Part shown: piece after piece, positions 31,821 through 63,753 of the stretch | Layout: each line of letters opens with the position of its first letter | Position numbering within the stretch: position 1 is the first letter of the stretch | Assembly: GCA_017431745.1 (NCBI GenBank) | Contig: JAFRKK010000010.1 | Span: 124,001 to 188,000, forward strand | DNA length: 64,000 bases | Direction: 5' to 3' | Origin: Candidatus Saccharimonadota bacterium | GTDB lineage: Bacteria; Patescibacteriota; Saccharimonadia; Saccharimonadales; Saccharimonadaceae | Position numbers and translations under genes: made by a program | The notes under the pieces: generated by a model | The model's database searches: none | Told to the model about the DNA's origin: nothing | Seen by the model: the letters and a program-made list of their open reading frames with translations, nothing else

Positions 31821-33725
31821 ATGGAAAAAATCCGGAATTTTTGTATTATCGCACATATTGACCACGGGAAATCGACGATTGCAGATCGGATGATGGAATT
31901 AACTGGGACGGTGTCGAAGCGAGAGATGAAATCGCAGCTTCTTGATTCGATGGAGCTTGAACAGGAAAAAGGGATTACGATTAAGTTGGCACCAGTAACG
32001 ATGGAATGGAAAGGGTATACTTTAAATCTGATCGACACGCCGGGGCATGTGGATTTTTCGTATGAGGTGTCACGGTCTTTGCAAGCGGTAGAAATTGCGG
32101 TGCTTGTGGTTGATGCGACGCAGGGAATTCAGGCACAGACTTTGGCAAATGTATATTTAGCTTTGGAGCAAGATTTGACGATAATTCCGGTGATAAATAA
32201 GATTGATCTTCCGGCGGCGGATGTGGAATCGGTTTCAGCGCAGATTATGAATTTGCTTGGATGTAAACGTGAAGATATTATAGAAGTCTCTGGTAAAACT
32301 GGACAAAATGTGGATAAAATATTAGATGCGGTAACAGAAACTAAACCAGTACTTTCTTCATCGGGACTTGAATTTTTAAGCACGTCATACACTGGGACGC
32401 CGGCAGAACCGTCCCTTCGGGACGAACCTGTCGGGTCCGTCAGGAATATACGTGTTAAAAATTCAAATCAATTTTATGATTCAGAAAATACTGGTTTAGT
32501 TTCTCCTACCAGGGCGCTGATATTTGATTCGTATTTTGACGATTATCGGGGAGTGGTGCTGTATGTACGGATTTTTAGTGGAGAGATTTTTAAGAATGAT
32601 GAGATATTAATGATGGCGGCGGGAACGAAAGGATTGGCGCTTGAAGTTGGGGTATTAACGCCAAAAATGACGCCGCGTGATTCATTGAAAGCTGGTGAAA
32701 TTGGTTATATTGTGACGAATTTGAAAACAACGCGAGAAGCGAAGGTGGGTGACACGGTGACTTTGGTGAAAAATCCTGCTAATGAGGCTTTGCCGGGGTA
32801 TAAAAATGTTTTGCCGTTTGTGTATGCGGGTTTTTTTCCGATTTCGAATGATCAATACAAAGAGCTGAAGGAAGCAATTGAAAAACTAAGTTTATCGGAC
32901 TCGGCACTTCGATTTGAGCCGGAAAATTCGCCAGTTTTAGGGTTTGGACTTCGAATTGGGTTTTTGGGACTACTTCATATGGATATTATTCGGGAACGAT
33001 TGGAGAGAGAATTTGGACTAGATTTAATCGTAACAAACCCATCGACGAACTATGAAGTAGTGATGAATAACGGTGAGGTATGTGAAATAAAATCGGCGGC
33101 GGATTTGCCGGACGTGTCAGAGATTCAGGAAATTCGGGAGCCGTGGGTGAAAGGCGAGATTATTTTGCCAAAAAGCATGATCGGCGGAGTATTAAACCTA
33201 ATCAACAGTAAGCGTGGGCACCAGACAAATTTGAATTATATTGAAGATCGGGCCGTGATTGATTTTGAGGCGCCGATGGCAAATTTGCTGACGGATTTTT
33301 ATGATCAATTAAAATCGGTGACTTCGGGATACGCGTCGTTTAATTATGAGCTTGACGGTTATCGGGCGGAAGATTTAGTGAGAGTGGATTTTTTGGTGGG
33401 TGGACACAAAATGGATGCTTTGTCGGTAATGGCGCATAGGTCGGAAGCTGAGGCAATTGGCCGGGAGGTGACAAAAAAACTCAAAGAAGTGATACCGCGG
33501 CAAAACTGGGAAGTGGCACTGCAAGCAGCAATTGGAGCGAGAATAATTGCTAGGGAAACGATTGGTGCGTATCGTAAAGACGTGACAGTAAAGATTCATA
33601 CGGGAGATAGGGACCGGAAAGCGAAGTTGCTTGCGAAGCAAAAGCGTGGAAAAGCACGGATGAAAAGATTTGGGAAAATTGATATTCCGTCGGAAGCGTT
33701 TACTGTAATGTTGAAACGTGACTAG
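31821..33725 (+). CDS. lepA: Elongation factor 4 (LepA) with palindromic insert
   Basis: LepA is the ribosome-bound GTPase that can back-translocate. It has G1 AHIDHGKSTIADRM, G2/G3 QEKGITIK and DTPGHVDF, G4 NKIDLP, and the C-terminal LepA domain ending RGKARMKRFGKIDIP. Residues about 174-226, between the GTPase domain and TRALIFDSYFDDYRG, are encoded by the palindromic element at 32341-32499. At 634 residues it is about 35 longer than usual. The start directly follows the pnp stop. Confidence 0.96.
   Translation: MEKIRNFCIIAHIDHGKSTIADRMMELTGTVSKREMKSQLLDSMELEQEKGITIKLAPVTMEWKGYTLNLIDTPGHVDFSYEVSRSLQAVEIAVLVVDATQGIQAQTLANVYLALEQDLTIIPVINKIDLPAADVESVSAQIMNLLGCKREDIIEVSGKTGQNVDKILDAVTETKPVLSSSGLEFLSTSYTGTPAEPSLRDEPVGSVRNIRVKNSNQFYDSENTGLVSPTRALIFDSYFDDYRGVVLYVRIFSGEIFKNDEILMMAAGTKGLALEVGVLTPKMTPRDSLKAGEIGYIVTNLKTTREAKVGDTVTLVKNPANEALPGYKNVLPFVYAGFFPISNDQYKELKEAIEKLSLSDSALRFEPENSPVLGFGLRIGFLGLLHMDIIRERLEREFGLDLIVTNPSTNYEVVMNNGEVCEIKSAADLPDVSEIQEIREPWVKGEIILPKSMIGGVLNLINSKRGHQTNLNYIEDRAVIDFEAPMANLLTDFYDQLKSVTSGYASFNYELDGYRAEDLVRVDFLVGGHKMDALSVMAHRSEAEAIGREVTKKLKEVIPRQNWEVALQAAIGARIIARETIGAYRKDVTVKIHTGDRDRKAKLLAKQKRGKARMKRFGKIDIPSEAFTVMLKRD
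32341..32499. repeat. Palindromic element, subfamily C, in frame inside lepA
   Basis: The outer arms are CTAAACCAGTA (32341-32351) and TACTGGTTTAG (32489-32499), continued by TTTCT/AGAAA. The inner stem pairs GAATTTTTAA with TTAAAAATTC. Blocks TTAAGCACGTCATACACTGG (32376-32395) and the 23 bases 32438-32460 recur exactly at 36213-36232 and 36276-36298. Confidence 0.88.
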
Positions 33726-36162: not shown

Positions 36163-36352
36163 TGAAACGGGTCCTGCCCGAACCTATTTTTTCAACAGCG
36201 GGACTTGAAATTTTAAGCACGTCATACACTGGCAAGCCGGGAAAGATTGCCCTTACAGGGCAACTTTCTCGGTTGCGTCAGGAATATACGTGTTAAAATT
36301 TCAAATCATTTTATGCTATTGAAAAAATAGGTTTCGGCCACCCGTTTCAGTG
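36163..36352. repeat. Palindromic element, subfamily C, between tsaB and tsaE
   Basis: The core blocks match the lepA copy exactly (36213-36232 and 36276-36298). The outer arms are long: the left starts TGAAACGGGT (36163) and continues ACCTATTTTTTCAA; the right arm is its inverted copy, TTGAAAAAATAGGT then ACCCGTTTCA, and lies within the end of tsaE (stop at 36316). The left arm thus repeats the tsaE 3' end in inverted form. Confidence 0.85.
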
Positions 36353-36723
36353 TATTCTATTTTAACAACAGCTCTATCATCAGGTAGAATATCGATGGCG
36401 GTGTTGCCCCATTCGATGATTGTTAAAGTATTTTTGTTGTTGATTGATTCGTTTAGGTCATCGAGCATGAGGCCAGGGTCGGGGAGGCGGTAGAAATCGT
36501 AGTGGACGAGGTGTTTATTGTTGGGTAGGGCGTAGGATTTTGAAATGGTAAAGCTAGGGCTGGTGATAGGCTCCTTGACACCGAGGCCTTCGGCGAGGCC
36601 GCGAGTAAAAGTGGTTTTACCGGCGCCAACATCGCCAATTAATTCAATTACCATGGGAAATTTGATTTTTTTGGCAAATTCACGACCGTAGTTCAACATT
36701 TCTTGTTCAGAATTGATTTTCAT
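36316..36723 (-). CDS. tsaE: tRNA threonylcarbamoyladenosine ATPase TsaE
   Basis: The 135-residue P-loop protein has Walker A GDVGAGKTTF, LAEGLGVKEPITSPSFTI and HYDFYRL, all typical of TsaE, which powers t6A synthesis with TsaB/TsaD. Its final codons form one arm of the palindromic element. The start is 10 nt from a minus-strand TATAAT that interlocks with the murC promoter. Confidence 0.93.
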   Translation of the reverse strand: MKINSEQEMLNYGREFAKKIKFPMVIELIGDVGAGKTTFTRGLAEGLGVKEPITSPSFTISKSYALPNNKHLVHYDFYRLPDPGLMLDDLNESINNKNTLTIIEWGNTAIDILPDDRAVVKIEYTETGGRNLFFQ

Positions 36724-36725
36724 TG

Positions 36726-36738
36726 TATAATAATTATA
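36726..36738. promoter_or_regulatory. Perfectly symmetric bidirectional promoter between tsaE and murC
   Basis: TATAATAATTATA is a perfect 13-bp palindrome giving TATAAT on both strands. Each -10 is 10 nt from its own start codon (36741 +, 36723 -). The two starts are only 18 bp apart, so the -10 boxes are interlocked and transcription must be mutually exclusive. Confidence 0.65.
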
Positions 36739-36740
36739 TC

Positions 36741-38027
36741 ATGAATATTTATATTTCTGGGATATCAGGGACGGGGATGGGTCCGCTGGCATTGATGACA
36801 AAAAAAGCCGGGTTTAATGTCAGTGGGTCGGATTTGACGCGAGGGGCGATTTATGACGAATTGGTTGCTGAAGGAATTGAGGTTGAAATTGGTGAACAGA
36901 ATGGCGAACTGTTGGCTAAAAAACTGAAAGAGGGGGTGGATTGGTTTGTGTATACTTCGGCGCTCCCGGATACGCATGCGGAACTTGTGATGGCACGAGA
37001 AGCGGGGGTAAAATGTACGAAACGGGATGATTTTACGACATTTTTGGTGGAAAAATTGGAATTAAAAATGGTAGCGGTGGCAGGGACGCATGGCAAAACA
37101 ACTACTACCGCAATGATTATTTGGGCGTGTTTGAAGCTTGGGCTTCCGGTTTCGTATATTGTGGGGACGACGCTTGGTTTTGCTCCTTCGGGGGCCTATC
37201 ATTCGGGTGACAGGTATTTTATTTATGAGGCGGATGAATATGATAGGAATTTTTTGAAATATCATCCGTGGTTAGCGGTAATTCCGGCGGTTTCTTATGA
37301 TCATCCAGATATTTATCCGACACGAGAGGATTATGAAAAAGCGTTTTCGCAGTTTGAAGCGCAGAGTGAGAATGTAATTGAAATTGTTGATGGTGAAGTT
37401 AAACGACGGGATGGCGGTAGAACGATGTTTAAGAAGGATAGTTTTAGCTTGGCGGGGGAGGTGAGGAAACAAGATGCGGCGCTCGCGGCTGAGGCCGTGA
37501 TGAAAATACAATTTGAAGAGTATATTAGAAAAGGAATGATAGTTGATTATAATTTTATGGAGTTAGCGGAAATCTTGAATGAATTTCCAGGTGTGGGACG
37601 AAGATTTGAAAAAATAGCGGATGGGGTGTACACGGATTATGCGCACCATCCGGAAGAAATTGCGGCGACGGTAGAGATTGCTAAAGAAGAAGCGAAGTTG
37701 AAAGGATTAAAAGGCGTAGTGGTAGTTTATCAGCCACATCAGAATATTCGGCAGCATGAAGTGAAAGATGATTACAAAGAATCTTTTGTGGGTGCAGATA
37801 AATTGTTTTGGTTGCCGACATATTTGGTGCGAGAGGACCCGAATTTAGCAGTGATTACGCCAGAAGAATTTGTGGCGGGGCTTTCCAATAAGGAAGTAGC
37901 GGAAGCAGCAGAAATGAATGATGATTTAGCGAAAAAACTGTGGGGATATGTAGACGAGGGGTATTTAGTGGTTTTGATGACGGCTGGCCCAGCGGACGAA
38001 TGGTTTAGGAAAATATTTGATTTTTGA
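36741..38027 (+). CDS. murC: UDP-N-acetylmuramate-L-alanine ligase (MurC)
   Basis: The 428-residue ligase adds L-Ala to UDP-MurNAc. It opens IYISGISGTGMGPLALM (Rossmann Gly-rich loop), has the ATP loop GTHGKTTTTAM, EADEYDRNFL, SYDHPDIYPT, and the C-terminal DYAHHPEEIAAT and YQPHQNIRQHEV typical of MurC. Mpl is a less likely alternative. The length is slightly under the usual 450-490. The start follows the symmetric promoter. Confidence 0.92.
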   Translation: MNIYISGISGTGMGPLALMTKKAGFNVSGSDLTRGAIYDELVAEGIEVEIGEQNGELLAKKLKEGVDWFVYTSALPDTHAELVMAREAGVKCTKRDDFTTFLVEKLELKMVAVAGTHGKTTTTAMIIWACLKLGLPVSYIVGTTLGFAPSGAYHSGDRYFIYEADEYDRNFLKYHPWLAVIPAVSYDHPDIYPTREDYEKAFSQFEAQSENVIEIVDGEVKRRDGGRTMFKKDSFSLAGEVRKQDAALAAEAVMKIQFEEYIRKGMIVDYNFMELAEILNEFPGVGRRFEKIADGVYTDYAHHPEEIAATVEIAKEEAKLKGLKGVVVVYQPHQNIRQHEVKDDYKESFVGADKLFWLPTYLVREDPNLAVITPEEFVAGLSNKEVAEAAEMNDDLAKKLWGYVDEGYLVVLMTAGPADEWFRKIFDF

Positions 38028-55725: not shown

Positions 55726-57813
<2,088 letters not shown>

Positions 57814-57838: not shown

Positions 57839-58498
57839 ATGTTTAACTTTATTCGGAATCATAAAGTTCTTAGTTTGCTATTGTTTTTGAATGTGGTGGC
57901 GGTGCTCGTGGTGGTTTTGGTGATAGTGATTCATAATACGAAAACGGCGACGGTAGATATTATGGTGGCGCCAATGGATGCGGTAGTGGAATTGAATGGC
58001 ACAAGATACGAAAATATGAGGTCACATAATGTGGTACCGGGTGAATATCATGTAAAGATTTCGATGGATGGGATGCAAACAAAGGAATATGATATTAATT
58101 TGGAAAGAGATGGTTTTGTGAGAATTTGGGAGTATTTACTTAGTGCGGATGGGAGTTTTGACTATTATTTGAGTCATCCGGAGGACGAGGCGGTGCTAGA
58201 AAATATCATTGATGAAGATGACAGGGCGGCTCAGAATTTTATAGCTGAGTATCAAAGAATAGCAAGGATTAATGAAATATTGCCACTGGAATATTATGAT
58301 AATGAAAACCCTGCGGATCCGATTGGTATTTTTATAGAACAATCTAAAGATGTTTGTAATAATAAAATAAATTGTTTGTCTGTTTATGGTGGCGAAAAGC
58401 ATCAGGATATAGTGTTTAAACTGATAAGTGATACTGGGTATTCGCCTGATGATTTTGAAGTAGTTTTTGTGCCGGAGTCAGAAGATGTTACGCAGTAG
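57839..58498 (+). CDS. Membrane-anchored protein with PEGA-like domain
   Basis: The 219-residue product has a membrane helix (about 11-34, LLLFLNVVAVLVVVLVIVI) and an outer beta domain (about 38-85: VDIMVAPMDAVVELNGTRYE, VVPGEYHVKISMDGMQTKE) that resembles the PEGA domain of surface proteins. The C-terminal half is acidic with two Cys (DVCNNKINCLS). It overlaps the large hydrolase gene by 14 bp and forms the first gene of a four-gene envelope operon. Confidence 0.65.
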   Translation: MFNFIRNHKVLSLLLFLNVVAVLVVVLVIVIHNTKTATVDIMVAPMDAVVELNGTRYENMRSHNVVPGEYHVKISMDGMQTKEYDINLERDGFVRIWEYLLSADGSFDYYLSHPEDEAVLENIIDEDDRAAQNFIAEYQRIARINEILPLEYYDNENPADPIGIFIEQSKDVCNNKINCLSVYGGEKHQDIVFKLISDTGYSPDDFEVVFVPESEDVTQ

Positions 58499-61400
58499 GT
58501 TTGGGCTATTTGTTGTGTTTTTGGTTCTGTTATTAGGTGTTTTTTTGGGTAAAAATGTAGTGGGCGCTAAATTGACCGATGAAGAATATATGGAACGAGC
58601 TTTAAATAGCATAATTTTTCCTGAACCTTGCGAGACTGGATCTTCTGACAGTAGCACATTGAGTGGTGAAATAACCATTTCTGGAAGTACAGCTGAAGAG
58701 AAGCTTTGGAGTGGTTTAAAGAGTTTTTTGAGTGATGAGCAAGCGGCTGGTATTATGGGCAATATTGGCCAAGAGGATGGAAATTATAATCCGGTAAGGC
58801 GAGAAGTCGGACAGAGTGGCGGTCTTTATAACAGGAATGTTCAAATGGGACTTGGCTTTGTGCAATGGTCGTTTGGTAGAAGAGTAAACTTATTGGATTA
58901 CATAAAAGAACGCGATGGGTCTTTGCTGAAGTATTTTGAGGATGAAAGTTTGGCTCAAATAAGTGGAGATGATTTTATTGAGAGAGTTGGCGAGAATGAT
59001 GCGAACAAAATTTTTCAACTAGAAGTTGAATTTATAAAAAACGAAATAGATCGGAGCTACCAAAAGTATTATGATATTAAAGATATAGATGAAGCTACGG
59101 TATGGTTTAGAGAGAATTATGAAAGAGCTGGTGTTTATAGTGATTCATTCCGAAAACAAAAAGCACATGAGGCTTATGATAAATTTACTAAGAAGACTTC
59201 ACCTGTTAGTTATACACAAAGTTCGACTAGTGGAGGGGGTGGTGGTTCGAGCAGTTCATCAGAAAGCGTTAGTGGGAATGCTAAGAAGATTTCTGATACA
59301 GCAATTAGGCTGGCTTGGCCAAAGAGTGCTAGCAGCTCTGATTATAAAGAAAATCAAGGGGGTAAGCCAACTGATGCGATGCTAGATGCTTGGGAAAAAT
59401 TGGGAACGAAGGATAGAAACTTGAGCCATGGAGCAGATTGTGGTTGGTTCGTCCAGACAGTGGTTGCTGCATCAGGCGTCGACCCTGAGTATACGGAAGC
59501 TACTAAAGGAGATGCCGCTGGTCTTAATAGTTTTGAGGAATGGGTCAAGAAGAATCCTAACAAATGGGAGGAAATAAATTTTGGTAACGGTAGTGATACT
59601 TCTAAACTTAGAGCTGGCGATGTCATAATGTCGTGGGTTGGTAGCAGGGCTAATCCTAGCGGTTTTCACGGTTGGGTAATAGCGGAGCTAGATGGGGAGC
59701 TGTATGTTGTTGAAGCTGGTTATAGTGCTGGTCACAATGGTTTTTGGGGACATGTGAGTGAGAAGGTTGAGAACTATACTGTTCCTACTGATGAGCTTGT
59801 TATTTTCCGAGCTAAGGGTGGCCCTTCATGCGATTCGTGCGAGAAGGGTAGTATGAATATTAATGGTGCGGCGGTGTGTTTGGCGTGGCCACTTGGAACT
59901 GATCCTGGTAAAACACTTTGGCCAAGTGGGACGGGGACGGAATTATTCAATGATTTTTGGGCTAAGGAAGAAGGGGTGGTAAAAGGGGATGGAACAGGGG
60001 ATTGTTGGGATAAAGGCGCTTATTGTTGTGGTTTTTCAGCTGCGGCAGTACGATATTCTGGCTATGATCCGGATTTCCAAAGTGCATGTGATGTGGGTGA
60101 TGATTTAGGTGGAGGAGCAAACCAATATCTATATGTTAAAGAACATTCGGACCTTTGGGAGCTTATTCCTTGGAATGGAGATAAGGCTAAACTAAAAGGT
60201 GGCGACGTAATATATTATTCTGGTTCAGGAATGGGACATTCTTATGTGATAGTACAAGATGAAAAGGGAGAAATTTACATAGCGGAAGCTTCTATGTGTG
60301 ATTTTTACGGTCGGATTACTGAGTATAGAGCACCACCACTGGGCACTTCGGCCTATATTTTCCGAGCGAAGAATGCAAAGAATTCTAATGTTGGGGTGTC
60401 GGTGACAGATGGAGTAAAAACTTCTTCGAGGACTGGAAAATTAACTGGTGGTACAGGACAAAATAATGGCGACATTAATGCTAGTGCATTTGAATTAGCT
60501 TGGCCGGAGGGAACATCGCCCGGTGTGTACAAAAAACAGGCATATGATAAGTTTGTTGAATTCTTTAATTCATTACCACCAGAGAGTGAAAAAAGTGATG
60601 GGCAAGACTGGACAGATGGTAAATCATGTATGGTTTTCGTGAATACTGTCTTACACTATGCTGGAGCTGGTAATGCCTTATTAGAAGATGATGAAGTAGG
60701 AGAACGGTATAAAAAACTATCTTCTGTGACTTCGTCTTTGATTAAAAGTGATGAATGGGAAGAAGTTGGAGGGGAAGGTAATGATGGGGCAGGATTAACA
60801 TATGGAGATTTGGAGCCTGGAGATGTATTGTCTTATTTCGGCAATGGTGTGGCAAGTGATGGTAACGACGGGACTTATTATAAGGGGCTAGGTTTGAAGC
60901 ACGAAGCTATTTATGGAGTAAATGAAGAGGGTGAAGGTAGGGTGATTGAGGCGGGTTGGGGTGGATCTTTGAGCTCACCTTTGAATGAGTGGGGGCATGT
61001 TACTGATAAAGGCAGCGATCCTAATGAGAAAGTACTTCCTTCTTGGGCTAAAATGGTGCGAGTGTTTAGGTGGAAGAAGAATTCTAGTGGGGACGAATGT
61101 GATGTGTGTGCCGGGTCAGAAGAAGGTGGCGGAGAACTAAAGGCAGGAGGGTTTGATACAGTAGAGGAAGCGACGAAGTTTATGCAGAGCTATATTGATG
61201 CGGCGTCACCGGGCGGGCAATATTATGGGAAGAGTGGAAATATTGTGTTCGGAGTGAAGAATGGAAGCGTAGTTGATGGTGGGTGCCCTTACGGAGTATT
61301 AAATAACTGCGTGGCGTTTTCGCAATGGTTCATAAATAATTATACGACTCTTGGGCCGAATTGGCACAATTTAGGTAATGGAGTGACAATAGCAGGAAAA

Positions 61401-61679
61401 TTGGTTGAATCAGGCTTGAAACGTGGAGATAATGGTGCCGAGCCACGGCCGTATGCTGTTTTTAGTAATAAAGGGATTTCTAGTGTTGGCCATACCGGTG
61501 TGATTCTTGGTGTGAATACGACTACAAGAAAAGCAATCGTGGGTGAAGCCTACTGTAATAATGGATATGCTTTTACGGCTCCGTCAGCAAGTGAATATTC
61601 ATTTGACGAGATGAAAGATTGGTGGTACGCGTATACTGATGATGTAATATCAATGGGAGGACCTTTGAAAAATGTTTAG
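58485..61679 (+). CDS. Secreted multi-domain peptidoglycan hydrolase: lysozyme plus four Cys-His modules
   Basis: The 1064-residue product has a signal peptide (1-28) and then a phage-tail lysozyme-like domain (about 65-235: IMGNIGQEDGNYNP, GLGFVQWSFGRRVNLLDYI). Three related modules follow, each opening LAWP and carrying a Cys and a later His: about 265-440 (ADCGWFVQTVV, GFHGWVIAEL), 455-620 (AYCCGFSAAAV, MGHSYVIVQD), 655-860 (KSCMVFVNTVL, LKHEAIYGVN). A fourth, CHAP-like domain (about 885-1064) has LNNCVAFSQWF and VGHTGVILG. It probably opens host or own peptidoglycan, as VirB1-like enzymes do for secretion systems. It overlaps both neighbours. Confidence 0.8.
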   Translation: MLRSRFGLFVVFLVLLLGVFLGKNVVGAKLTDEEYMERALNSIIFPEPCETGSSDSSTLSGEITISGSTAEEKLWSGLKSFLSDEQAAGIMGNIGQEDGNYNPVRREVGQSGGLYNRNVQMGLGFVQWSFGRRVNLLDYIKERDGSLLKYFEDESLAQISGDDFIERVGENDANKIFQLEVEFIKNEIDRSYQKYYDIKDIDEATVWFRENYERAGVYSDSFRKQKAHEAYDKFTKKTSPVSYTQSSTSGGGGGSSSSSESVSGNAKKISDTAIRLAWPKSASSSDYKENQGGKPTDAMLDAWEKLGTKDRNLSHGADCGWFVQTVVAASGVDPEYTEATKGDAAGLNSFEEWVKKNPNKWEEINFGNGSDTSKLRAGDVIMSWVGSRANPSGFHGWVIAELDGELYVVEAGYSAGHNGFWGHVSEKVENYTVPTDELVIFRAKGGPSCDSCEKGSMNINGAAVCLAWPLGTDPGKTLWPSGTGTELFNDFWAKEEGVVKGDGTGDCWDKGAYCCGFSAAAVRYSGYDPDFQSACDVGDDLGGGANQYLYVKEHSDLWELIPWNGDKAKLKGGDVIYYSGSGMGHSYVIVQDEKGEIYIAEASMCDFYGRITEYRAPPLGTSAYIFRAKNAKNSNVGVSVTDGVKTSSRTGKLTGGTGQNNGDINASAFELAWPEGTSPGVYKKQAYDKFVEFFNSLPPESEKSDGQDWTDGKSCMVFVNTVLHYAGAGNALLEDDEVGERYKKLSSVTSSLIKSDEWEEVGGEGNDGAGLTYGDLEPGDVLSYFGNGVASDGNDGTYYKGLGLKHEAIYGVNEEGEGRVIEAGWGGSLSSPLNEWGHVTDKGSDPNEKVLPSWAKMVRVFRWKKNSSGDECDVCAGSEEGGGELKAGGFDTVEEATKFMQSYIDAASPGGQYYGKSGNIVFGVKNGSVVDGGCPYGVLNNCVAFSQWFINNYTTLGPNWHNLGNGVTIAGKLVESGLKRGDNGAEPRPYAVFSNKGISSVGHTGVILGVNTTTRKAIVGEAYCNNGYAFTAPSASEYSFDEMKDWWYAYTDDVISMGGPLKNV

Positions 61680-62391
61680 AATATTTTGGGAAAATTTGTC
61701 GAAAATTCAAAAGATTGGACTGGTTGCGGTGCTACAAGTGTCGATGATAGTTATTTTGGTGTTGCTAGTGCAAACATTTACTGCGGAGAAAAGTCATGTA
61801 GAAATAGAAAGCCAGTCTGTGAGTGAGGCTGGAATGCCAAAGAAAGCTGAGGAGTTTATTTCACAGAATATTTGGTCAATTATTAAGAGTAGAGTGGCTG
61901 ATGTGACGCAGAATGACATAGATGATGTGGTGATACGGGAAGGAACTTTTGAAACATCTGAGAACGAAGACGGGACCATAGCGGCTAAATTTATTGTGGA
62001 TATTGATTCTTTGAAACAAACTTTTACGGTGGGGACTGGATGGTCGAAAGACGGGAGAGAAGTATATGAGACTATCGTTGATTGCCCGCCGCTTGAGTTG
62101 ATGAAATATCCGGAAACGGTGTGTTATGGTGCATATCATAATACTTATTCGCTTGATTTGTATTTACCATATACGGTATATTCAGAAGGGCGTGGAAGCA
62201 GTAGTTCGCCATCGGCGCCAAATATTTTGATTACGGGGAATCAAGATACGAAAACTTTGAATATTATGGTATCGACATGCGACGAAGAAAGATTTAAAAA
62301 AGAGGCTTGGGAATATTTGAATACGGTACCAATTGATTTTTCAGATTACACCGTAAATTATAGAATTAATGGGGTTAATACGGAGTGTTAG
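61672..62391 (+). CDS. Membrane-anchored outer protein, paralogue 1
   Basis: The 239-residue product has a membrane helix (about 14-36, GLVAVLQVSMIVILVLLVQT) and an outer alpha/beta domain ending NTVPIDFSDYTVNYRINGVN then TEC. The ending closely matches that of the next gene (DSVPIDLSEYTVKFEI), so the two are paralogues. It has a Cys pair pattern (CPPLELMKYPETVC). No known family. It overlaps the hydrolase gene by 8 bp. Confidence 0.6.
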   Translation: MFRIFWENLSKIQKIGLVAVLQVSMIVILVLLVQTFTAEKSHVEIESQSVSEAGMPKKAEEFISQNIWSIIKSRVADVTQNDIDDVVIREGTFETSENEDGTIAAKFIVDIDSLKQTFTVGTGWSKDGREVYETIVDCPPLELMKYPETVCYGAYHNTYSLDLYLPYTVYSEGRGSSSSPSAPNILITGNQDTKTLNIMVSTCDEERFKKEAWEYLNTVPIDFSDYTVNYRINGVNTEC

Positions 62392-62955
62392 ATGGAACAG
62401 GGCTATAGTTTAAGTAACATATTTAAAAATACGACGAAAAAACAGAAGATTGGGATTGGATTGGCTTTGATGGTAATTGTGGTCTTGCTAGTGGTTTTAG
62501 TAATCTTTGTGATGAGTGGTGGCGATATGTCAGAAGGTGAAGGAGATAATAATGTTGAGCAGAAAAATGGAGTTGTAAATGTGACAGAGGATACTTATAT
62601 TAATGATAGTGGGTATACTGTTACGCAGGAAATTACCACATATGCAGATGGCAGCGAGGTGATAACAGAAACTAAAATGGATAAGTACGGAAATGTGACT
62701 ACGACTGACCCAACGTTAATTACTACCTATTTTCCGTATCAAGAGATGCGTGGACATAAGGATTCCGATTCAACTCTTCGTTATTATGTGAGAGTATATG
62801 AAGAGGATAAAACTATCGAAGCTTTTGTTGAATATTGCGATGAAGAGCAGGATAAGAATCTGGTATATAAATATATAGATTCTGTTCCGATAGATTTGTC
62901 TGAGTATACTGTGAAATTTGAAATAGCTGATATATATATATCTTGTGAAGAGTGA
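62392..62955 (+). CDS. Membrane-anchored outer protein, paralogue 2
   Basis: The 187-residue product has a membrane helix (about 20-44, IGLALMVIVVLLVVLVIFVM), an acidic linker and an outer domain with TTYFPYQEMRGHKDSD and the end DSVPIDLSEYTVKFEIADIY. It starts right after the stop of paralogue 1 (no gap). The minus-strand gene at 63268 has a similar plan (membrane helix, then YCDENATTIKF...SYHYDINYSC), so it may be a third member. Confidence 0.6.
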   Translation: MEQGYSLSNIFKNTTKKQKIGIGLALMVIVVLLVVLVIFVMSGGDMSEGEGDNNVEQKNGVVNVTEDTYINDSGYTVTQEITTYADGSEVITETKMDKYGNVTTTDPTLITTYFPYQEMRGHKDSDSTLRYYVRVYEEDKTIEAFVEYCDEEQDKNLVYKYIDSVPIDLSEYTVKFEIADIYISCEE

Positions 62956-63038: not shown

Positions 63039-63113
63039 TGGTGACCTCACCGAGAGTCGAACTCGGATTGTCGGGATGAAAACCCGATGTACTAACCGTT
63101 ATACTATGAGGCC
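63039..63113 (-). tRNA. tRNA-Glu (TTC)
   Basis: Minus strand: acceptor GGCCTCA/TGAGGTC, anticodon loop TTTTCAT (TTC), T arm CCGAGTTCGACTCTCGG, discriminator A and encoded CCA, all intact. Confidence 0.97.
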
Positions 63114-63120
63114 AAATTGC

Positions 63121-63239
63121 AAATGTACCTATGACTCTCGGCGAGAGGACGCTCGTTTCGCTCGCTATCCGCCTTCGGCGGGCGAACCCGCGTTGCCGGG
63201 ATGAAAACCCGATGTGTCTGCCCGTTATACGAAGAGGCC
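63121..63239 (-). pseudogene. Broken second tRNA-Glu copy
   Basis: From 63239 the minus strand reads a normal 5' part (GGCCTCTTCGTATAACGG..., anticodon loop TTTTCAT), but the T arm is shortened (GCGGGTTCG directly followed by CCCGC) and the matching 3' acceptor strand and CCA are missing. In their place lie CCGCC-TTC-GGCGG and CTCTCG-type inverted repeats (63121-63181). It looks like a tRNA gene disrupted by a hairpin-type insertion. Confidence 0.7.
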
Positions 63240-63267: not shown

Positions 63268-63753
63268 TTAGAAATTACAAGAGTAGTTAATGTCGTAATG
63301 ATAAGATGTGCGTTCGTATGGAGGATCCATGTAGAATTTAATGGTAGTGGCGTTTTCGTCGCAGTAAGTAGTGAGATAATCGCGGTATTCGTCATTTTTT
63401 TGATTGTCGTAGAGGAGAAGATTACTTAGGCTGACAGGCGCAAGCCCATCAGTGTGATATTTTTCCATTTCGGTGTCGAGATTTTTAATCTGTTTGAATT
63501 TGTCGGAATTGATGAGGTTTTCGTAGAAGTAGTTTTCGTAATAATCAGTAGCGAGAGCGGAAATTTTAGACTTGATCACTTTTTCAGTGTTGAAGAAGAT
63601 AGTATAGATGATGCTAAAGGCGACGACAAGACTAGCAATCATAATGACTAAAAGGATAGTCTTTTTGATGGCTGGGCTAGAAAGGTTAGTGCGATAGCGG
63701 TTAGAATTGTGAATAGCGGAACTGTATTTTTTACGATTATTTGATTTAACCAT
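63268..63753 (-). CDS. Single-pass membrane protein with outer domain
   Basis: The 161-residue product has a basic cytosolic start (1-30), one membrane helix (about 31-55, TILLVIMIASLVVAFSIIYT) and an outer domain with EKVIKSKISALATDYYENYF and a C-terminal Cys pair (YCDENATT, INYSCNF). Its layout resembles the paralogues at 61672 and 62392. No family is known. The ATG lies 7 nt after TGA-TAAGAT (leaderless type). It is divergent from pyk. Confidence 0.6.
   Translation of the reverse strand: MVKSNNRKKYSSAIHNSNRYRTNLSSPAIKKTILLVIMIASLVVAFSIIYTIFFNTEKVIKSKISALATDYYENYFYENLINSDKFKQIKNLDTEMEKYHTDGLAPVSLSNLLLYDNQKNDEYRDYLTTYCDENATTIKFYMDPPYERTSYHYDINYSCNF

Follow-up and report, generated by a model that had tools for sequence, protein, structure and literature searches.

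The stretch of DNA analysed here (the window, 64,000 nucleotides; contig JAFRKK010000010.1, positions 124,001 to 188,000, forward strand) belongs to assembly GCA_017431745.1 of a Candidatus Saccharimonadota bacterium, whose 744 kb genome is held in 13 contigs and is 97 % complete; the organism probably lives on other bacteria. Towards its end, the window carries a gene for a secreted-type peptidoglycan hydrolase of 1064 aa with five modules (58485..61679, an open reading frame (ORF) without a stop, characterized by Pfam, blastp and alignment), which is enclosed by three small genes termed here partners pA (57839..58498), pB (61672..62391) and pC (62392..62955), all on the + strand. The original prediction, made from the sequence alone, had singled out the hydrolase as an exceptional array of wall-cutting modules and did not include the three flanking genes. 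The partners, matched to the modules of the hydrolase, are the more interesting feature of the locus. With the hydrolase start placed at the ATG at 58485 (an in-frame TTG at 58467 is an alternative), the pA gene overlaps the hydrolase start by 14 nt, the pB gene overlaps the hydrolase end by 8 nt and pC begins on the base after pB. A scan for promoters and terminators was uninformative (18 promoter-like sites against 14.4 expected, 4 terminator-like sites against 2.5 expected).

From the N- to the C-terminus, the hydrolase comprises a signal-like N-terminus, a Phage_lysozyme2 domain, three modules that each carry a LAWP motif (residues 276, 466 and 671; LAWP modules M1 to M3) and a CHAP domain. 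The hydrophobic N-terminus (58503..58568), examined by eye, is likely a signal peptide with a VGA-KL-like cleavage site. The Phage_lysozyme2 domain (58728..59186; Pfam PF18013, 7e-17) scored 62.4 bits against a Pfam cut-off of 28.2, and its lysozyme-type glutamate, Glu97 (58773-58775), is kept in 13/13 aligned sequences. The modules M1 (59259..59822; C319, H395, E410), M2 (59838..60413; C514, H585, E601) and M3 (60453..61070; C715, H806, E822) are mutually homologous by blastp (M1-M2 3.7e-12, M1-M3 7.3e-11, M2-M3 1.7e-10; identity 26–30 %), M2 having also been delimited by alignment and M3 showing the longest branch of the three copies (1.77). The C-terminal CHAP domain (61149..61667; C942, H1003, E1021) gave no significant blastp match to M1, M2 or M3; it was recognized by PF05257 (3.2e-8; 34.4 bits against a cut-off of 26) and by alignment, with the NC...HTG...E residues present. 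CxxC motifs stand in front of M2 (residues 449-452) and of the CHAP domain (residues 872-875). The earlier description of a single protein with a lysozyme domain and four Cys-His peptidase-like modules is borne out by the Pfam matches, by the three LAWP copies and by the Cys, the His and, on the conserved strand that follows, a Glu, which are retained in all four peptidase modules. Across 37 aligned LAWP modules, the Cys is invariant and the His is at least 90 % conserved, whereas relatives may have Ser, Gln, His or Asp at the third catalytic-type position; in 19 aligned CHAP modules, both Cys and His are invariant. The catalytic modules predicted from these sequences make a wall hydrolase function very likely.

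No Pfam family was found in the middle of the hydrolase: M1 gave no Pfam match and the window modules did not reach the curated cut-off of PF00877. Among 37 single LAWP modules, NLPC_P60 matched 10 weakly (best 2.9e-5) and CHAP matched five weakly, and none of Pfam, PHROGs and NCBIfam was seen to list LAWP as a separate curated family. An AlphaFold2 model of M1, built from 55 aligned modules (pLDDT 85.3, pTM 0.86), displays a papain-like alpha+beta fold with the Cys at a helix start, a later His and a third polar residue, as expected for the NlpC/P60-CHAP clan. VIA-align, run on candidates supplied by Foldseek, placed the CHAP endolysin Lys2972 at the top (Z 10.6, 3.4 Å over 139 residues), followed by PlyGRCS and Tae3 (both Z 9.5), NlpC2/NlpC1 (9.4) and Tse1 (8.2). 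Foldseek alone was weak, its best PDB match to M1 being 4q68 (E 7.9e-3) with nothing at E ≤ 0.001, and convincing relatives of solved structure were found neither for the hydrolase nor for the pA, pB and LAWP profiles. Given the papain-like VIA neighbours of M1 and the weak Pfam matches, LAWP is read as a divergent member of the NlpC/P60-CHAP clan, which it resembles in the papain-like fold, the conserved Cys and His and the wall-hydrolase fold neighbours, and from which it differs in having no Pfam assignment of its own and in occurring in tandem arrays. M2 and M3 are predicted to be papain-like by homology to M1, and the assignment of the CHAP domain likewise rests on homology. The modelling therefore agrees with the proposal of the original prediction that the modules are papain-like wall-hydrolase domains, and neither the model of M1 nor the homology of M2 and M3 to it points to another fold.

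The partner proteins are small, and each has one N-terminal transmembrane (TM) segment preceded by basic residues, an arrangement in which the main domain should face outwards. For pA, an AlphaFold2 model (pLDDT 88.7) and fold searches indicate an N-terminal TM helix, a PEGA/transthyretin-like beta sandwich, a long helix and a small C-terminal alpha/beta domain. Residues 34-106 match transthyretin-like domains in Foldseek and VIA (Z up to 7.9), and PEGA (PF08308) was matched at E ≤ 0.1 by 33/41 rows of the pA family (best 6.3e-9), the window copy not being among them; the model thus supports a PEGA/transthyretin-like fold for pA. The matches in the pA fold search were taken up by the PEGA-type part, which left the C-terminal domain without a fold assignment. 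According to family pairing and hhalign, pB consists of an N-terminal TM helix, a pB-specific domain and a C-terminal domain distantly related to that of pA (hhalign probability 96.5 %, identity 9 %). In pC, a single TM segment is combined with 76 C-terminal residues that are pB-like (blastp, 35.5 % over 76 aa, 2.4e-12). No resemblance of the partners to immunity proteins was detected in the searches done. Another small protein with a hydrophobic segment is encoded on the opposite strand at 63268-63753 (-); it has no significant similarity to pA, pB or pC, and its relatives occur in genome G003 and, near a CHAP hydrolase, in G014.

In loci taken from 60 genomes of the genus, the type of partner was observed to follow the type of peptidase module. 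The gene directly downstream of CHAP-ending hydrolases encoded pB in 39/40 cases, pA in 0/40 and neither in 1/40, and LAWP-ending genes were followed by pA in 24/44, pB in 5/44 and neither in 15/44 cases. Restricted to genes with a partner, the association between module and partner gave 8e-14 in Fisher's test; after clustering of the hydrolases at 50 % identity, 29 CHAP-pB, 0 CHAP-pA, 11 LAWP-pA and 2 LAWP-pB clusters remained (p 2e-8). Two further sets of LAWP genes, chosen by LAWP alone and hence the fair basis for comparison, agreed: the best 40 matches outside the genus had pA in 35, pB in 2 and neither in 3 cases, and 43 named loci, which partly repeat genomes of the genus and family, had pA in 33, pB in 2 and neither in 8, one of the eight being cut by a contig end. 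A small TM protein was encoded downstream of 78/88 hydrolase genes and of 30/275 other large genes, a comparison that is biased upwards since the loci were partly fetched for holding pA or pB. Among 22 hydrolases, comprising 21 genes without a recognized full-length pA or pB downstream and one C39-ending gene, 14 have as their downstream neighbour a different small protein whose N-terminus is strongly hydrophobic, and four of these 14 proteins are weak or partial pA matches. At a further locus (L183:8378-10933), pB and another small protein with a hydrophobic N-terminal segment lie downstream of a gene whose 852-aa product matches GDSL, glucosaminidase, M23 and VanY, so metallopeptidases may also take part in the pairing.

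The number of partners was also associated with the peptidase modules. A free upstream partner, that is, an upstream partner not itself following another hydrolase, was present in 18/22 CHAP genes that also contain LAWP, C39 or NlpC as an inner papain-like module, against 0/17 of those that do not (p 1.8e-7), or 17/21 and 0/9 when counted by clusters (p 5e-5). This test covered 39 of the 40 CHAP-ending genes, the contig-cut ORF G357_C34 having been dropped; these 39 are the 39 CHAP matches with E below 1e-20, and as they were picked by that match the set is independent of the neighbouring genes. C39 modules were labelled with a profile made from five copies that Pfam had recognized, NlpC modules by a Pfam match below the cut-off. 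The upstream partner was pA in 15 of the 18 genes and pB in three, and all three pB cases carry one LAWP module of a separate clade. Several of the 17 CHAP genes without an inner papain-like module possess extra glucosaminidase, GDSL or Amidase_2 modules, so domain number alone fails to explain partner number. Two of the four exceptions have particular gene arrangements: G343_C8 has two downstream pB genes, and G213_C12, still counted as an exception, has a split hydrolase reading frame with pA directly upstream of the first piece. In G001, five partner genes accompany two adjacent hydrolases, one of which has two papain-like types and the other three. A dedicated partner gene paired with a type of catalytic module, the arrangement expected of effector-immunity and protease-inhibitor systems, is therefore what was found.

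The LAWP profile matched 25/286 genomes in a sample of the phylum, 73/151 genomes of the family (34/61 genera) and 41/60 genomes of the genus. Almost all named LAWP relatives are labelled Candidatus Saccharibacteria, many being of ruminant-gut origin; typical LAWP-pA loci were also noted in records titled Nomurabacteria and Lachnospiraceae (L121 and L097), the contigs of which are likely misnamed or misbinned. Five recognized modules were present in only 2/92 hydrolase ORFs from the fetched loci of the genus, so the array is rare, though not without a counterpart. Wall hydrolases built in this way from several domains are nevertheless common in the genus, and to call the array exceptional was an overstatement. 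Besides one more LYS+LAWPx3+CHAP protein, the genus loci contained two other LYS+LAWPx2+CHAP proteins with pA and pB and one LAWPx3+CHAP protein, and a related 1200-aa protein (L047:8613-12215) combines five families, namely Phage_lysozyme2, GDSL, GH3, Amidase_3 and LAWP, and is followed by one pA partner. The gain and loss of modules between relatives, for which a comparison had been suggested, proved to be real: LAWP occurs once, twice or three times, or is replaced by C39 with SGNH, NlpC/P60 or Amidase_2. The middle of other relatives is occupied by a GDSL/SGNH hydrolase, Peptidase_C39_2, NlpC/P60 or Amidase_2, and a glucosaminidase can form their N-terminus. In a tree of 66/67 LAWP modules, one G003 protein has its first LAWP paired with M1 (support 97/96) and its second with M2 (100/91), which indicates that the M1-M2 part of the array is older than the split between the two proteins; M3 lies on a long branch and its placement is uncertain. 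Elsewhere in the genome of the window, on contig C13, two genes near each other (L033:4825-5967 and L033:6491-8302) join a hydrolase to a type IV secretion system (T4SS) pilin-like domain (sub-cutoff Pfam), GDSL/SGNH in one case and a LAWP module in the other.

Parallels to parts of this arrangement exist in known systems. Multidomain tail or endolysin-type hydrolases with a phage tail lysozyme domain (PF18013) also unite lysozyme and CHAP in one chain, but the window gene is chromosomal, has a Sec-type N-terminus and membrane partner genes, and no phage gene was seen beside it. A phage origin of the hydrolase was considered and set aside, as scans of viral contigs with the whole protein and with the LAWP alignment yielded no relative. 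Type VI secretion system (T6SS) Tae/Tai pairs likewise consist of papain-like wall hydrolases with dedicated neighbours, and Tae3 (Z 9.5) and Tse1 (Z 8.2) lie near M1; here, however, several blades form one chain, the partners were unlike immunity proteins in the searches done, and no T6SS was seen, none having been sought. A resemblance in gene organization is offered by staphopain/staphostatin, SpeB/Spi and Bacteroides C10/Bfi, in which, according to passages of PMC2873492, the gene for a papain-like protease lies beside, and is co-transcribed with, its own gene for a known or predicted inhibitor. Those enzymes are general proteases, whereas the present locus encodes wall-hydrolase modules and, as candidate inhibitors, TM-anchored partners with a PEGA-type or pB-specific domain, the number of which follows the module types. 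Secreted peptidoglycan hydrolases have been credited earlier to predatory Patescibacteria, as stated for Vampirococcus in PMC8080830. The terms lysozyme, peptidase, peptidoglycan, immunity and hydrolase were not found in the main text of PMC10633639, and no account of module-partner pairing was found in those portions of the PMC full-text literature on Saccharibacteria/Patescibacteria wall hydrolases, PEGA and immunity proteins that were covered.

The hydrolase, with one blade of the lysozyme type, predicted to cut glycan strands, and four papain-like blades of the peptidase type (three LAWP, one CHAP), is inferred to be exported by Sec and probably serves to open the wall of another bacterium, be it a host or a competitor; as the original prediction suggested, its modules might tune the attack to several peptidoglycan types or host species. 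It is encoded together with partners predicted to be membrane-anchored and to face outwards, and each partner family goes with certain peptidase modules: pA mainly with those of the LAWP, C39 and NlpC types, pB with CHAP and one LAWP subclade. The separate LAWP-pA-CHAP-pB gene order kept in L098, L101 and L107 suggests that the window gene may be a fusion of two ancestral pairs, LAWP-pA and lysozyme/glucosaminidase-CHAP-pB, in which both partners were kept. As cognate inhibitors, the partners would silence the peptidase modules during their passage across the producer's own membrane and wall. With moderate confidence, we regard the product of the locus as a multi-blade hydrolase that is exported and has membrane partners specific to its modules, most likely cognate inhibitors protecting the wall of the producer; inhibition is preferred owing to the predicted site of the partners at the cell's own wall, the tight gene coupling, the count by peptidase type and the known or predicted inhibitor neighbours of papain-like proteases.

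Membrane-anchored foldases or activating cofactors, each folding or switching on one papain-like class after export, would account for the same genomics nearly as well, and we consider this role possible, if less probable than inhibition. The same class-specific pairing and tight gene coupling would be expected; the layout is comparable to that of lipase-specific foldases, and the role to that of SweC and SweD of the FtsEX-CwlO complex, which show that a hydrolase of the NlpC/P60 type, such as CwlO, can require membrane proteins. SweC and SweD, type II integral membrane proteins according to a section heading of PMC6705773, are described there as required for CwlO hydrolase activity, but as working via FtsEX and not directly on the hydrolase. 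Against a folding or activating role, some LAWP hydrolases also lack any partner gene, and the PEGA-type domain, which gives no hint of a foldase, is absent from short partners (135 aa). Plain membrane or wall anchors, which would hold the exported hydrolase at the surface of the episymbiont, would suit the single TM segment, the outward domain and the PEGA-type domain of most pA proteins, and a LAWP module joined to a T4SS pilin-like domain occurs without a partner, as if anchored already. A single anchor would serve a whole protein, but more partners are found where there is an inner papain-like module, and added glycosidase, esterase or amidase modules bring no such increase; the upstream-partner counts are thus hard to reconcile with anchoring alone, which we judge unlikely.

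It is more doubtful still that the hydrolase is a VirB1-like protein opening the wall for the Patescibacteria T4SS, with the partners as T4SS accessory proteins. Passages of PMC12102498 describe VirB1 proteins of monoderms (TraG, PrgK) as combining a glycan-cutting and a CHAP domain, hence a glycan cutter and a peptidase in one exported protein, and report peptidase and lysozyme genes downstream of virB4 as essential in S. epibionticum ML1; elsewhere, the genome of the window also encodes a LAWP protein that carries a T4SS pilin-like domain. The window gene, however, has more peptidase modules and its partner pairing, and the locus lies directly downstream of a DNA ligase gene and near an HtpX-type protease gene (named by eye); no T4SS family was found in the part of the window that was scanned, namely ten proteins at 29.6-46 kb and five at the locus. 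Least probable of all, and in our view very improbable, is an ordinary autolysin for the growth or separation of the cell's own wall. The cell seems to make peptidoglycan, a Mur ligase gene being present in the window (36723-38027), but the patchy presence of LAWP in the genus, the fast module turnover and the paralogues with different modules are unlike a housekeeping enzyme.

Several observations weigh against cognate inhibition or the pairing on which it builds. Kinship was handled in the pairing tests by identity clustering at most, and a foldase or activator would yield identical partner-module bookkeeping. The two remaining exceptions to the upstream-partner rule are G350_C37, which has one partner where two are predicted, and G005_C25, the one LYS+LAWPx2+CHAP protein of the genus loci without an adjacent partner. 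Behind the LAWP genes of G007 and G352 stands a DnaJ-like gene (by eye) in place of a partner, and a partner is also lacking for those of G000 C13, G003 C1 and G003 C2, one of which carries a T4SS pilin-like domain. The five LAWP-ending genes with pB run counter to the rule, pC is unaccounted for by it, and two partner families for four peptidase modules amount to one partner per type, not per module.

More tentatively, cognate inhibition could be extended to an unrecognized modular system of Saccharibacteria, in which secreted wall-cutting weapons are combined with membrane-anchored proteins for self-protection that are specific to the modules. As new blades (LAWP, C39, NlpC, CHAP) fuse into one chain, the matching protector genes would gather around it, and the gene neighbourhood would, if this is true, record the blade inventory. 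The locus bears on how ultrasmall episymbionts breach or tap the thick walls of their hosts while sparing themselves, and provides candidates for both halves of that question, a family-wide set of secreted hydrolases and their dedicated membrane partners. The pairing predicts that pA acts on LAWP, C39 and NlpC modules and pB on CHAP; should the partners prove to be inhibitors, wall specificity and self-protection could be predicted from the module-partner code across Saccharibacteria genomes, which are mostly uncultured.

Some repeats were noted elsewhere in the window. A GC-rich dispersed repeat of ~75 bp (56245-56326) lies in frame within the DNA ligase gene (55741-57813); it has 15 matching places in the genome, itself included, one of which, on contig C13, falls within a TsaD-like gene (by eye), and it resembles in-frame palindromic elements. 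Blocks of 60 bp and 44 bp are repeated with the same spacing at 32344-32474 and 36181-36312, ~3.8 kb apart, and a second, partial tRNA-like copy (63183-63215) is located 125 bp from the tRNA at 63042-63113.

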